DNA from: Arenicola marina
Taxonomy: Eukaryota; Annelida; Polychaeta; Arenicolidae
Direction of reading: 5' to 3'
DNA: 64,000 bases
Assembly (NCBI GenBank): GCA_964019135.1
Contig: OZ025248.1
Span: 48,291,670 to 48,355,669 of the forward strand
In this document: positions 12,501 to 64,000 of the stretch, one piece after another
How the letters are laid out: the number at the start of each line of letters is the position of its first letter
How positions within the stretch are numbered: the stretch's first letter is position 1
Made by a program: the position numbers and the translations under genes
Notes under the pieces: model-generated
Database searches by the model: none
What the model was told of the DNA's origin: nothing
The model's input: the letters and a program-made list of their open reading frames with translations, nothing else

Positions 12501-15500
12501 ATTACCCATACACGTTACTTTAGGTGGGATGTACTCGTATCAACATTGAACCATCATTACCCATACACGTTACTTTAGGTGGGATGTACTCGTATCGACA
12601 TTGAACCATCATTACCCATACACGTTACTTTAGGTGGGCTGTACTCGTATCGACATGGAACCATCATTATCCATACACGTTACTTTAGGTGGGCTGTACT
12701 CGTATCGACATGGAACCTTCTATACCCATACACGTTTCCTTTGGTGGGATGTACTCGTATCGACATGGAACCATCATTACCCATACACATTACTTTAGGT
12801 GGGATGTACTCGTATCGACATGGAACCATCATTACCCATACACGTTACTTTAGGTGGGCTGTACTCGTATCGACATGGAACCATCATTACCCACACACGT
12901 TACTTTAGGTGGGCTGTACTCGTATCAACATGGAACCATCATTACCCATACAGTTACTTTAGGTGGGCGTTAGGCCTACTCATATCGACATGGAACCATC
13001 ATTACCCATACACGTTACTTTAGGTGGGCTGTACTCGTATCGACATGGAACCATCATTACCCATACACGTTACTTTAGGTGGGGTGTATTCGCATCGACA
13101 TGGAACCATCATTACCCATACACGGTACTTTAGGCGGGCTGTACTCGTATCGACATCGAATCGGTGTCGTTATCCAGTATTGGCCCATTACGTCTTCAAT
13201 GTGCCAAGCGGGGGTCCCTGCGGACACGTTCCCGTGGCTGGAGCCATGCCGCCCGAGACACCCTACATCGCATACACACCCCCAGAGCAGTATGAATGCC
13301 TCCCAATGTACATCAGGCCTGACACTCAGGCATGACAGGTCTAATTAATATATATACAACCGCCTGAAAAGAGAATACTTCCGTCTGCCAAAAGGGTTGC
13401 ATGTTATCATATATAACGGGGTTTTCCGTGAAATGCACACTACAATCTGTCGGTATGGATGGATCCATGTGAATAGGTAACAGAGCGTAAATGTAGAACG
13501 TTGACAGTCTTACCTTTTTATTTAAGACGCAATGGAACAAGAATATAAAGAAACCCTGAAACGAATAAACAATTGTTCTTGAACAGAATGGCAAATACAC
13601 CTGTATGCGCATTAATTCATTTCCCAATTACTTTCTTACTGTGTGGCTACTAAGATTTTAAACAACCCCTGAAATTAAATAAACAATCATCATTGAACAG
13701 AAAGTAATGCCCTTTTTCGTGTAGCCAGATTGTTTATAAGTTTGTATAAATTCTTCGTGGCAACCTTAACAATAAAATTAAAGATACCATAGAGTATTTT
13801 TGTCAAGCGAAAATTATATAAGTTCTTAATATATTTCTGTGGTAGATTAACGTTATATGATTTTCTGCGACGCACAAAGGCAATACAAGGCCTTCCATGT
13901 TTTACCTGTAACGTAGATATAATGACAAACATGAATAAGAACGCCGTGGCAGCCTTGCTGGCTGCATCGCTGACGCCTTCGATTAGGGCGAGGGCACCAA
14001 AAATCCACCCGATGCCCAGTATAGGACTCAACACGAGCATATTCCAAATGCCGGCTCTGAAAGTCAAGTAACAGAAGTATGATTACGACCAGTGAGATAT
14101 GGAAGGCCCACGACGTCATGAAGAGAAAGACACGAAATATTACTTGCGCAAAGAGCTAATTATCAGCCCTATGGTAAAACATATCGGTTAGGATATTATA
14201 ATATTATTATACAGAAATTGTTCCACCTACTTTCAGTACCAAGCGCCTTATAACTTCACGAACGATGTAGATACAGCCTACACCTGTGACGCGCCTTAGA
14301 ACGACCCGAGAGAGACCAAGCGAACCCGAAAACTAATAGAAAGAACTTGGCGATACCAAGTCACATTACCTGATGCGTTCCTTTTCGGATTTAGGTAATA
14401 ATGCCTTCCTGGAGGCTCTGACTTGTACTATGACCGCAACGATAATGTTGAACTGAAATCCCAAGGGTATATAGGCATGATTTGTAAGAACTGATTGTTA
14501 AAACAATAAATCCAACGCACAACTTGTATTAGCAAGAAAAAAAAAAAAAAAAAAAAAAAAACGGCTTGGAAGGCACTACGCGGTATCAAACTAGAAGTCC
14601 ACTGCACGATTGATGGTTATTGGAGAAAATACTGATTCAGGCGGGTTAGGGACCATAACGACAGCGGTGGCTATCATAGGGACGAAGGTAGGAAAAGACA
14701 TGCTTACGACAACAATGGCTATCATAGGGGGCGGTGAAGGTAGAGGGAGATAAAGACATGCTTACGACAACAATGGCTATCATAGGGGCGGTGAAGGTAG
14801 AGGGAGATAAAGACATGCTTACGACAACAATGGCTATCATAGGGGCGGTGAAGGTAGAGGAAGATAAAGACATGCTTACGACAACAATGGCTATCATAGG
14901 GGCGGTGAAGGTAGAGGGAGATAAAGACATGCTTACGACAACAATGGCTATCATAGGGGCGGTGAAGGTAGAGGAAGATAAAGACATGCTTACGACAACA
15001 ATGGCTATCATAGGGGCGGTGAAGGTAGAGGAAGATAAATATATGCTTACGACAACAATGGCTATCATAGGGGCGGTGAAGGTAGAGGAAGATAAAGACA
15101 TGCTTACGACAACAATGGCTATCATAGGGGCGGTGAAGGCAGAGAAAGATAAAGACATTCTGACGACAGGAATAGCCACAAAATAGGGGCGGTGAAGGTA
15201 GAGGGGCATAAAGACATGCTTACGACAACAATGGCTATCCTAGGGGCGGTGAAGGTAGAGGAAGATAAAGACATGCTTACGACAACAATGGCTATCATAG
15301 GGGCGGTGAAGGTAGAGGAAGATAAAGACATTCTGACGACAGGAATAGCCAAAAAATAGGGGCGGTGAAGGTAGAGGGGCATAAAGACATGCTTACGACA
15401 ACAATGGCTATCATAGGGGCGGTGAAGGCAGAGAAAGATAAAGACATTCTGACGACAGGAATAGCCAAAAAATAGGGGCGGTGAAGGTAGAGGGGCATAA

Positions 15501-62100: not shown

Positions 62101-64000
62101 GGTTGGTGGTGCTGGTCGGGCCGACTAGAGACGGTACCTCGGCTTACCTTGGTACACCCCTGTCAGGTTGGTGGTGCTGGTCGGGCCGACTAGAGACGGT
62201 ACCTCGGCTTACCTTGGGACACCCCTGTCAGGTTGGTGATGCTGGTCGGGACGACTAGAGACGGTACCCCGGCTTACCTTGGGACACCCCTGTCAGGTTG
62301 GTGGTGCTGGTCGGGCCGACTAGAGACGGTACCTCGGCTTACCTTGGTACACCCCTGTCAGGTTGGTGGTGCTGGTCGGGCCGACTAGAGACGGTACCTC
62401 GGCTTACCTTGGTACACCCCTGTCAGGTTGGTGGTGCTGGTCGGGCCGACTAGAGACGGTACCTCGGCTTACTTTGGTACACCCCTGTCAGGTTGGTGGT
62501 GCTGGTCGGGCCGACTAGAGACGGTACCTCGGCTTACCTTGGTACACCCCTGTCAGGTTGGTGGTGCTGGTCGGGCCGACTAGAGACGGTACCTCGGCTT
62601 ACCTTGGTACACCCCTGTCAGGTTGGTGGTGCTGGTCGGGCCGACTAGAGACGGTACCCCGGCTCACCTTGGGACACCCCTGTCAGGTTGGTGGTGCTGG
62701 TCGGGCCGACTAGAGACGGTACCTCGGCTTACCTTGGTACACCCCTGTCAGGTTGGTGGTGCTGGTCGGGCCGACTAGAGACGGTACCTCGGCTTACCTT
62801 GGTACACCCCTGTCAGGTTGGTGGTGCTGGTCGGGCCGACTAGAGACGGTACCTCGGCTTACCTTGGTACACCCCTGTCAGGTTGGTGGTGCTGGTCGGG
62901 CCGACTAGAGACGGTACCCCGGCTTACCTTGGGACACCCCTGTCAGGTTGGTGGTGCTGGTCGGGCCGACTAGAGACGGTACCTCGGCTTACCTTGGTAC
63001 ACCCCTGTCAGGTTGGTGGTGCTGGTCGGGCCGACTAGAGACGGTACCTCGGCTTACCTTGGTACACCCCTGTCAGGTTGGTGGTGCTGGTCGGGCCGAC
63101 TAGAGACGGTACCTCGGCTTACCTTGGGACACCCCTGTCAGGTTGGTGATGCTGGTCGGGCCGTCTGGAGACGGTACCTCGGCTTACCTTGGGACACCCC
63201 TGTCAGGTTGGTGATGCTGGTCGCGCCGACTAGAGACGGTACCTCGGCTTACCTTGGTACACCCCTGTCAGGTTGGTGGTGCTGGTCGGGCCGACTAGAG
63301 ACGGTACCTCGGCTTACCTTGGTACACCCCTGTCAGGTTGGTGGTGCTGGTCGGGCCGACTAGAGACGGTACCTCGGCTTACCTTGGTACACCCCTGTCA
63401 GGTTGGTGGTGCTGGTCGGGCCGACTAGAGACGGTACCTCGGCTTACCTTGGTACACCCCTGTCAGGTTGGTGGTGCTGGTCGGGCCGACTAGAGACGGT
63501 ACCCCGGCTTACCTTGGTACACCCCTGTCAGGTTGGTGGTGCTGGTCGGGCCGACTAGAGACGGTACCTCGGCTTACCTTGGGACACCCCTGTCAGGTTG
63601 GTGGTGCTGGTCGGGCCGACTAGAGACGGTACCTCGGCTTACCTTGGTACACTCCTGTCAGGTTGGTGATGCTGGTCGGGCCGACTAGAGACGGTACCTC
63701 GGCTTACCTTGGTACACCCCTGTCAGGTTGGTGATGCTGGTCGGGACGACTAGAGACGGTACCTCGGCTTACCTTGGGACACCCCTGTCAGGTTGGTGAT
63801 GCTGGTCGGGACGACTAGAGACGGTACCCCGGCTTACCTTGGGACACCCCTGTCAGGTTGGTGGTGCTGGTCGGGACGACTAGAGACGGTACCCCGGCTT
63901 ACCTTGGGACACCCCTGTCAGGTTGGTGATGCTGGTCGGGACGACTAGAGACGGTACCCCGGCTTACCTTGGGACACCCCTGTCAGGTTGGTGGTGCTGG
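59157..64000 (-). repeat. Minisatellite 9: 65-bp units with a full donor, runs off right edge
   Basis: About 74 units of GGCTTACCTTGGTACACCCC followed by TGTCAGGTTGGTGGTGCTGG and TCGGGCCGACTAGAGACGGT plus ACCTC. On the transcribed strand each unit carries ACCAAG|GTAAGCC, a near-consensus donor. Read in phase 1, which the next exon demands, the sequence before the donor gives PTSTTNLTGVYQ and then joins EPDDVIC. A higher-order repeat of 3,640 bp (56 units) is visible: landmarks CCGTCTGGAG, TCGCGCCGAC and ACACTCCTGTC recur at exactly that distance. Confidence 0.97.

Follow-up and report, generated by a model that had tools for sequence, protein, structure and literature searches.

Junction-spanning minisatellites in three introns of a predicted adhesion GPCR gene of Arenicola marina

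Analysis of a 64,000-nucleotide stretch of the Arenicola marina genome (hereafter the window) reveals three introns of one predicted receptor gene that open with minisatellites whose unit includes the exon-intron junction. They are likely to have arisen from a short junction-straddling seed that was multiplied, and the first donor copy alone is predicted to be used. The end of the exon and its splice signal are repeated 46-202 times at the start of these introns, so the cell would have to take the first of many near-identical sites.

The receptor gene and its junction arrays

An adhesion-GPCR gene is predicted on the minus strand, with a partial model of 826 aa in 19 exons of consistent phases (Table 1). 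The exon ends were placed partly by phase, 18 exons and a final one being joined consistently, and partly by homology; an alignment with ADGRL3 crosses from TM3 into TM4, with a gap of one residue close to the junction. Pfam matches above the cut-off within one model comprise 7tm_2 (E 1.1e-38), GAIN (6.2e-16) and GPS (7.6e-8). The predicted protein thus has a GAIN domain that carries a GPS and precedes a 7TM domain of the secretin type, the arrangement by which adhesion GPCRs are defined. The HRM domain, which is not defining for this family, is borderline: the part model, at 26.3 bits, just passes the cut-off of 26.2, and the full model, at 23.1, falls below it. In protein similarity searches (10, 28 and 4 hits, three of the hits nameless) molluscan proteins were the top named matches in two, with 28-30% identity, and no lancelet protein occurred among the named matches. 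Four further open frames gave no match to Pfam, no Rfam family reached its gathering score, and no tRNA was found with the bacterial setting of ARAGORN.

Table 1. Exons of the gene model and long tandem arrays, in window coordinates
Feature	Position	Strand	Basis or remark
Exon HRM1 (first half of hormone-receptor domain)	58824..58928	-	donor AAG|GCAATC, GC type; Pfam HRM borderline
Exon HRM2	48582..48679	-	gene model
Exon GAIN1	47804..48010	-	gene model; Pfam GAIN
Exon GAIN2	47083..47151	-	gene model
Exon GAIN3	38412..38523	-	gene model
Exon GAIN4	37892..38023	-	gene model
Exon GAIN5	36591..36696	-	last 24 nt and donor CGG|GTGAGT match 66-bp unit
Exon GAIN6	33229..33367	-	gene model
Exon with GPS motif	32202..32333	-	acceptor choice inferred from phase
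Exon TM1	30916..31031	-	homology and gene model
Exon TM2	30481..30607	-	homology and gene model
Exon TM3	28447..28612	-	exon end and donor GGG|GTAAGT match 30-bp unit
Exon TM4	21986..22055	-	homology and gene model
Exon TM5a (67 nt)	21470..21536	-	last 32 nt and donor GTC|GTAAGC match 57-bp unit
Exon TM5b	14370..14452	-	homology and gene model
Exon TM6	13906..14056	-	homology and gene model
Exon TM7	13514..13555	-	homology and gene model
Exon CT1 (cytoplasmic tail)	6851..6913	-	inferred from phase only
Exon CT2 with stop codon	6042..6503	-	inferred from phase only
65-bp array	59149..64000	-	runs off window; unit carries AAG|GTAAGC; TRF
68-bp array, HRM1-HRM2 intron	49372..58147	-	off junction
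37-bp array, GAIN2-GAIN3 intron	38569..46704	-	ends ~45 nt ahead of next acceptor; not at donor
22-bp array, GAIN4-GAIN5 intron	36755..37612	-	off junction
66-bp donor array, GAIN5 intron	33495..36614	-	unit: exon end + GTGAGT + intron start; TRF
30-bp donor array, TM3 intron	22401..28461 (TRF); 22382-28464 (alignment)	-	
57-bp donor array, TM5a intron	14694..21501	-	TRF
55-bp array, TM7-CT1 intron	7157..13160	-	off junction

As the earlier note had proposed, these three arrays, on the minus strand, begin within a coding exon, and their unit is composed of the exon end, the GT and the start of the intron. The exon parts given there for two of the units hold: the consensus of the 57-bp unit is identical to the end of TM5a over all 32 nt, and the 66-bp unit agrees with the end of GAIN5 at 23 of 24 nt. 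The 30-bp unit at TM3 is likewise a junction array, but the proposed division into 15 + 15 nt is inexact, as the exon part is some 18 nt long and includes one gap and a single mismatch. The authentic donors follow base 36591 (66-bp array), 28447 (30-bp) and 21470 (57-bp). Counting as full those copies with at least 80% of the unit aligned, the arrays contain 46, 202 and 119 copies, with the GT present in 42, 198 and 115, respectively. Over the three introns 355 of the 367 full copies keep the GT, and 301 of them carry the authentic 9-mer unchanged (authentic donors included in both counts). The length of each array is within a few bases of an exact multiple of its unit.

Within 2 kb, three of the 18 donors and none of the 19 acceptors have copies of their junction; the copied junctions match at 22-24 of 24 nt, the remaining 34 at 12-17. 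No small hidden arrays of the mirage type (see the last section) were detected in the 2 kb searched at each acceptor and at the 15 donors that remain. A further array, with a 65-bp unit, had been assigned the same design. Its unit, its GT (74 of 74 full copies) and its frame agree with this, the exon frame of the unit running on in phase 1 into exon HRM1, and by its sequence it is probably a fourth donor array; because the corresponding exon falls outside the window, it can be called consistent with the donor design and no more.

Placement of the arrays relative to donors

Five of the nine long arrays (with units of 68, 55, 37, 22 and 33 bp) and all six short tandem repeats lie away from known donors; therefore the locus also makes repeats without junction seeds. 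The possible donors suggested for the 37- and 55-bp arrays were not borne out: their best sense scores are 4.1 and 3.8 (p 0.044-0.74 under three null models), and the arrays begin ~380 and ~350 nt beyond the nearest donor.

All tests of placement are post hoc and concern one gene. Among the eight long arrays wholly in the window, three lie across a donor, against an expectation of 0.34-0.39 (P 0.0033-0.0047), or P 0.026-0.034 when acceptors are also counted. With the addition of the six short repeats, none of which is at a junction, the proportion is 3/14 (P 0.0099, or 0.065 with any junction counted). The claim that placement is not random is thus upheld insofar as chance explains it poorly, but the statistics are modest, with P ranging from 0.0033 to 0.065 depending on the choice of arrays and junctions. 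The stronger claim, that the splice donor itself was the cause, is unsupported or at best open, given the many arrays off donors, donor bases that are not clearly better kept, and the excess of donor-like motifs in the long arrays away from junctions (see below).

Of the rival explanations of this placement, the one that fares best, although we would not expect it to prove right, is that minisatellites arise anywhere in the introns of a repeat-rich gene, those straddling donors being kept as harmless, without any role of the donor. It accounts for the 5/9 long and 6/6 short arrays found elsewhere, for donor bases that are not clearly more conserved than the rest of the unit, and for the rise of P to 0.026-0.065 once any junction counts. 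It is harder to reconcile with three donor-straddling arrays against 0.34-0.47 expected (P 0.0033-0.0099), and with junction repeats described for several lancelet genes in the available text of two reports (PMC3087553, PMC3902484).

More doubtful is the proposal that donors are preferred seeds, i.e. that transcription or splicing at 5' splice sites starts tandem duplication more often there than elsewhere, for instance through a stalled polymerase, R-loops or U1 binding. Three donors and zero acceptors are hit in this gene, and with the 65-bp array counted four of nine long arrays are at donors (P 0.0004); yet three versus zero are too few to tell donor from acceptor, and a mirage at an acceptor has been published (BflGb6, in the part of PMC3087553 available). 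An unlikely alternative is that a G/T-rich, donor-like DNA motif expands in tandem regardless of its role in splicing, and that donors are hit through their resemblance to it. With both strands counted, donor-like motifs do exceed expectation in the five long arrays away from junctions, both against local windows (Fisher P 0.011) and against dinucleotide shuffles (Fisher P 0.014, spread over the 22-, 37- and 33-bp units). The former enrichment, however, comes mostly from the 33-bp unit on the plus strand, which alone is significant against local windows and may belong to the donor of a neighbouring gene. The scores of the 22- and 37-bp units are no higher than 2.3 and 4.1 bits, though near p 0.05 against their own shuffles.

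Turnover of the copies and choice of the donor

Selection on the copied donors is not clearly evident in our data. The number of circular 9-nt windows conserved at least as well as the donor window (itself included) is 25/65 in the 65-bp unit, 35/66 in the 66-bp, 24/57 in the 57-bp and 3/30 in the 30-bp unit. In the first three the donor window does not stand out; in the last it is among the best kept, so that weak selection on the donor may act there. Variants are shared between copies as expected from turnover within an array: 94-97% of variant letters fall in types seen more than once, and distinct sequences number 15 of 46 (66-bp), 55 of 202 (30-bp) and 35 of 119 (57-bp) copies. Edge copies diverge in the 30-bp array, and do not in the 57-bp array at its exon-side edge. 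The similarity of neighbours was examined for traces of slippage in steps, and this reading was rejected, with lag-1 identity about equal to that at lag 30; some longer periodicity is present in the 65-, 30-, 57- and 33-bp arrays (permutation p 0.003-0.037).

These arrays probably originated when a short seed straddling the exon-intron junction was multiplied in tandem. Such a duplication would be tolerated because the exon still ends precisely where it should at the first copy; the array would then be enlarged and homogenised by unequal exchange or conversion, and an intron of a few hundred bases would thereby be stretched to 3-7 kb. We regard it as very unlikely that short genuine duplications were instead inflated by mis-assembly: arrays of 3-8 kb are difficult to assemble and their copy number could be distorted, but the copies differ in a structured manner and several unrelated arrays occur within one gene.

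Splicing is predicted to take place at copy 1, the exon-proximal donor, which is favoured by homology and frame. The exon end indicated by homology coincides with copy 1, the ADGRL3 alignment being gap-free over the TM5a/TM5b junction. When later donors are joined to the next exon, the frame stays open in 0/41 others for GAIN5 and 0/198 for TM3, all of them meeting a stop. The 57-bp unit is in frame, and for TM5a 10 of 115 later donors leave the frame open, with 19 residues added each. It is nonetheless most improbable that the copies serve as alternative donors extending the exon and diversifying or regulating the receptor, as the other two introns offer no usable further donor, the added residues would fall inside TM5, and the donors have no clear extra conservation.

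The choice of copy 1 likely rests on position, because most copies share the authentic donor sequence and the latter is not clearly more exposed. Exposure was not supported as a guide to copy 1: in each of the three introns the authentic donor is less exposed than the sampled copies are on average, and interior copies at least as exposed as it number 34/38 (GAIN5), 28/28 (TM3) and 11/28 (TM5a). The TM5a donor, though below the mean, beats 17/28 of the copies; it is weak by consensus (3.9 bits). As the donor sequence is identical in most copies, the spliceosome would be predicted to choose by position, i.e. the site first transcribed and nearest the upstream acceptor, and not by donor strength or exposure.

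Our broadest suggestion is a tentative one, to be doubted for now, namely that 5' splice sites of this lineage are hot spots of minisatellite birth, giving genes with hundreds of equal donors among which the right one is picked by position alone. If true, it would provide a natural test of splice-site choice where sequence gives no help. Each intron is a natural experiment with tens to hundreds of copies, most of them identical in the nine bases of the donor, and homology to the protein fits the first copy alone; copy usage would tell apart rules that depend on how strong or exposed a donor is, on the size of the exon or on the order of transcription. The gene also illustrates how the end of a coding exon can become bound to a minisatellite that is liable to change, and how introns might grow about twenty-fold out of their own splice site.

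Comparison with known junction repeats

The amphioxus class of junction minisatellites, mentioned in the earlier note, is indeed published. "Mirage" minisatellites, i.e. tandem repeats across an exon-intron boundary in which the splice site is repeated (PMC3087553), are described for amphioxus Adh3 and the globins BflGb6 and BflGb9 (PMC3087553) and for troponin C (PMC3902484). In the available text the Adh3 data and globin RT-PCR suggest that regular splicing is undisturbed by mirages, and concerted evolution is reported within the BflGb6 clusters (PMC3087553). In the gene analysed here, the 57-, 30- and 66-bp units span the boundary, the 65-bp unit doing so by inference only; the splice signal is retained in most units, and the shared variants point to homogenisation, the array edges, expected in mirages to be less homogenised, giving a mixed picture.

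Intronic minisatellites of earthworm metallothionein were considered as a parallel and rejected, the repeats described in the available part of that report lying within the intron, with no junction copies (PMC12783039). In the portion of the potato RdRp study available, intron gain similarly involves a tandem duplication over an intron-exon boundary that copies splice signals, but there a single duplication creates a new intron, whereas here the duplicate is multiplied and stays in one intron (PMC4974935). Lancelet PGBD5 is alike in possessing 60- and 108-bp tandem repeats that abut or overlap splice sites; it differs in that these are imperfect, two assemblies showing 2 or 7 and 3 or 6 copies, and in that one predicted exon sits inside the repeats (PMC3902484, as far as available).

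The Adh3 mirage units, of 10-72 bp, are similar in size to those described here (PMC3087553). According to the same partial text, the BflGb6 repeat, at an acceptor, comprises 6 units of 150-160 bp in one haplotype and 3 in another, and BflGb9 shows a 157-bp duplicate at a 3' exon boundary (PMC3087553). In contrast to these globin mirages, the gene described here carries 46-202 units of 30-66 bp in three or four arrays, at donors only. The class is therefore already known, and, as far as the available texts extend, the Arenicola arrays are a large-scale case of the pattern from lancelet genes, exceeding the published cases compared (BflGb6, BflGb9, PGBD5) in copy number and in arrays per gene.

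A predicted adhesion-receptor gene among minisatellites

Nine long minisatellites occupy 49.1 kb of the 64-kb window, and between them, on the minus strand, sit the predicted exons of an adhesion GPCR. Eighteen exons could each be given an AG acceptor and a GT donor (GC in one case), and a last exon carries a stop codon; the GPS acceptor and the final two exons were placed by phase alone. The phases are consistent across all exons; joining them, with the exon end of the 65-bp unit (discussed below) at the start, yields a model of 826 stop-free residues. Pfam searches with the full model detected GAIN (E 6.2e-16), GPS (E 7.6e-8) and 7tm_2 (E 1.1e-38) above the cut-offs, while HRM scored 23.1 bits (below the cut-off of 26.2) in the full model and 26.3 bits in a part model. 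Among relatives of solved structure ADGRL3 scores best (E 1.7e-36; the query was a 444-aa portion of the model). Three protein searches returned 10, 28 and 4 matches at 25-32% identity; the top-scoring named matches belong to Mytilus, Haliotis and Mya for two of the searches (about 8000 candidates scored in each) and to Notodromas for the third, and no lancelet occurs among the named matches of the three (3 matches are nameless). The first HRM exon apparently ends at 58824 in a GC-type donor (AAG/GCAATC), the sole non-GT among the 18.

Donors copied in tandem and the placement of the arrays

Analysis of the introns following exons GAIN5, TM3 and TM5a reveals arrays that begin within the exon and whose unit comprises the exon end, the 5' splice site and the intron start ("donor arrays"), as the earlier note had described. 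The proposed division of the unit into exon and intron parts agrees with the exon matches for TM5a (32+25; 32/32 nt identical to the unit consensus) and GAIN5 (24+42; 23/24), but only approximately for TM3 (15+15), where exon and unit match over about 18 nt, interrupted by a single mismatch and a single gap. The length of each of the three arrays is a multiple of its unit, with a deviation of -3 to +6 nt (assuming that the 66-bp array starts at 36614), and each array ends 127-326 nt ahead of the following acceptor, which suggests that an intron once short was lengthened from its donor side. In the sense orientation the 30-bp unit reads GTAAGTGTTCTTCAG plus TGGGCGGGGCATGGG; an acceptor-like TTCTTCAG lies immediately 5' of a 15-nt stretch ending in the donor, and each unit thus resembles an in-frame microexon.

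Arrays and short tandem repeats in the window (full copies have at least 80% of the unit aligned; in the GAIN5, TM3 and TM5a rows the GT and 9-mer counts include the authentic, exon-proximal donor)
Feature	Position	Unit (bp)	Full copies	With GT	With exact authentic 9-mer	Remark
GAIN5 donor array		66	46	42	41	
TM3 donor array	22401-28461	30	202	198	161	
TM5a donor array	14694-21501	57	119	115	99	
65-bp array	59149-64000	65	74	74		leaves window
37-bp array	38569-46704	37				
33-bp array	1-4460	33				past predicted stop
Short tandem repeat	32604-32729	21 (x 6)				touches no model exon
Short tandem repeats	28888-29696	53 (x 2.8), plus complex GC-rich repeats				touch no model exon
Short tandem repeat	5781-5907	20 (x 5.6)				touches no model exon

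A second copy of the junction within 2 kb was found for 3/18 donors (matching 22, 24 and 24 of 24 nt) and for 0/19 acceptors; the best match of the remaining 34 junctions in the same search was 12-17 of 24 nt. At 150 random control places outside arrays the mean was 14.7/24, and six reached at least 20. We then reduced every long array to a single unit and placed it at random, requiring at least 5 nt on either side of a junction, which gave 0.34-0.39 donor-straddling arrays expected and 3 observed. The probabilities of at least 3, all optimistic since the case was chosen for looking striking, are 0.0033 for the 8 long arrays wholly inside the window, 0.0046 with seeds entirely in coding sequence disallowed, 0.0047 for the 7 arrays restricted to the gene, 0.026-0.034 with acceptors included, and, after addition of six short repeats (0/6 at a junction; 14 arrays), 0.0099 with donors counted and 0.065 with junctions of either kind. 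Chance does not explain the placement well, in line with the earlier note, although the statistics are modest and come from one gene. Including the 65-bp array brings the long arrays at donors to 4/9 (P 0.0004, equally optimistic).

The donor of the 65-bp unit (AAG/GTAAGC, 11.2 bits) scores highest among the 18 authentic donors and 9 units, GT is retained in every full copy, and the exon part, in the phase required by the next exon, ends ...TSTTNLTGVYQ and continues into EPDDVICK of the HRM exon. These features fit the suggestion of a fourth donor array of the same design, the predicted exon itself lying beyond the window. The 68-, 55-, 37- and 22-bp arrays lie within introns of the receptor gene away from donors, and the best sense donors of their units reach -0.2 to 4.1 bits; the possible donors proposed for the 37- and 55-bp arrays are not supported. 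The 37-bp array (GC about 0.71) stops only about 45 nt ahead of the GAIN3 acceptor, nearly reaching a junction from the other side. The plus-strand unit of the 33-bp array carries a strong donor-like TAG/GTGAGA (9.4 bits), and this array may have been seeded at a donor in a neighboring plus-strand gene whose exon would precede the window.

Predicted donor choice and probable turnover of copies

Homology puts the predicted exon ends at copy 1; in comparison with ADGRL3 the TM5a/TM5b join aligns gap-free, and a one-residue gap lies close to TM3/TM4. When reading through to the next exon, GAIN5 meets a TGA within the donor itself and 0/41 further donors are usable, as are 0/198 for TM3 and 10/115 for TM5a, each of the ten adding 19 residues; in the exon frame, 10 more copies of the 57-bp unit can be read before the first stop (609 nt), and they encode STFTAPMIAIVVVSMSLSP repeats. 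The donor sequence cannot mark copy 1, as it is common to most copies. Nor does modeled local RNA folding clearly appear to mark it: sampled copies that equal or exceed the authentic donor in openness number 34/38 in GAIN5, 28/28 in TM3 and 11/28 in TM5a. The simplest remaining rule would be choice by position, with the spliceosome taking whichever donor comes first after the upstream acceptor.

There is no clear selection on the donor copies: the donor window is conserved at 96.7-99.5%, and the 9-nt windows equalling or beating it (itself included) number 25/65, 35/66, 24/57 and, in the 30-bp unit, 3/30. Distinct sequences number 19/74 (65-bp), 15/46 (66-bp), 55/202 (30-bp) and 35/119 (57-bp). 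Between 94 and 97% of variant letters are of types common to several copies, and copy-to-copy similarity barely declines with distance, the pattern expected of repeated exchange or conversion within the array, which would homogenize the copies.

Relation to known junction repeats

The earlier note had pointed to boundary minisatellites at amphioxus Adh, and such repeats are indeed in print: PMC3087553 describes tandem repeats spanning exon-intron boundaries ("mirages") in Adh3, globins and other genes, and PMC3902484 adds troponin C and PGBD5, so the class is already known. Searches of a literature collection that takes in few subscription journals, and not the original Adh study, listed no junction array reaching dozens of copies and no paper on adhesion receptors with minisatellites. 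In that literature mirages are described as leaving splicing undisturbed, being unstable, evolving in concert, and occurring at acceptors as well as donors, and intron gain from them has been proposed (PMC3087553, PMC3902484). The label "amphioxus mirage" would exceed the evidence; the donor arrays of the receptor gene can be called mirage-type arrays, a genuine, large-scale instance of this known class.
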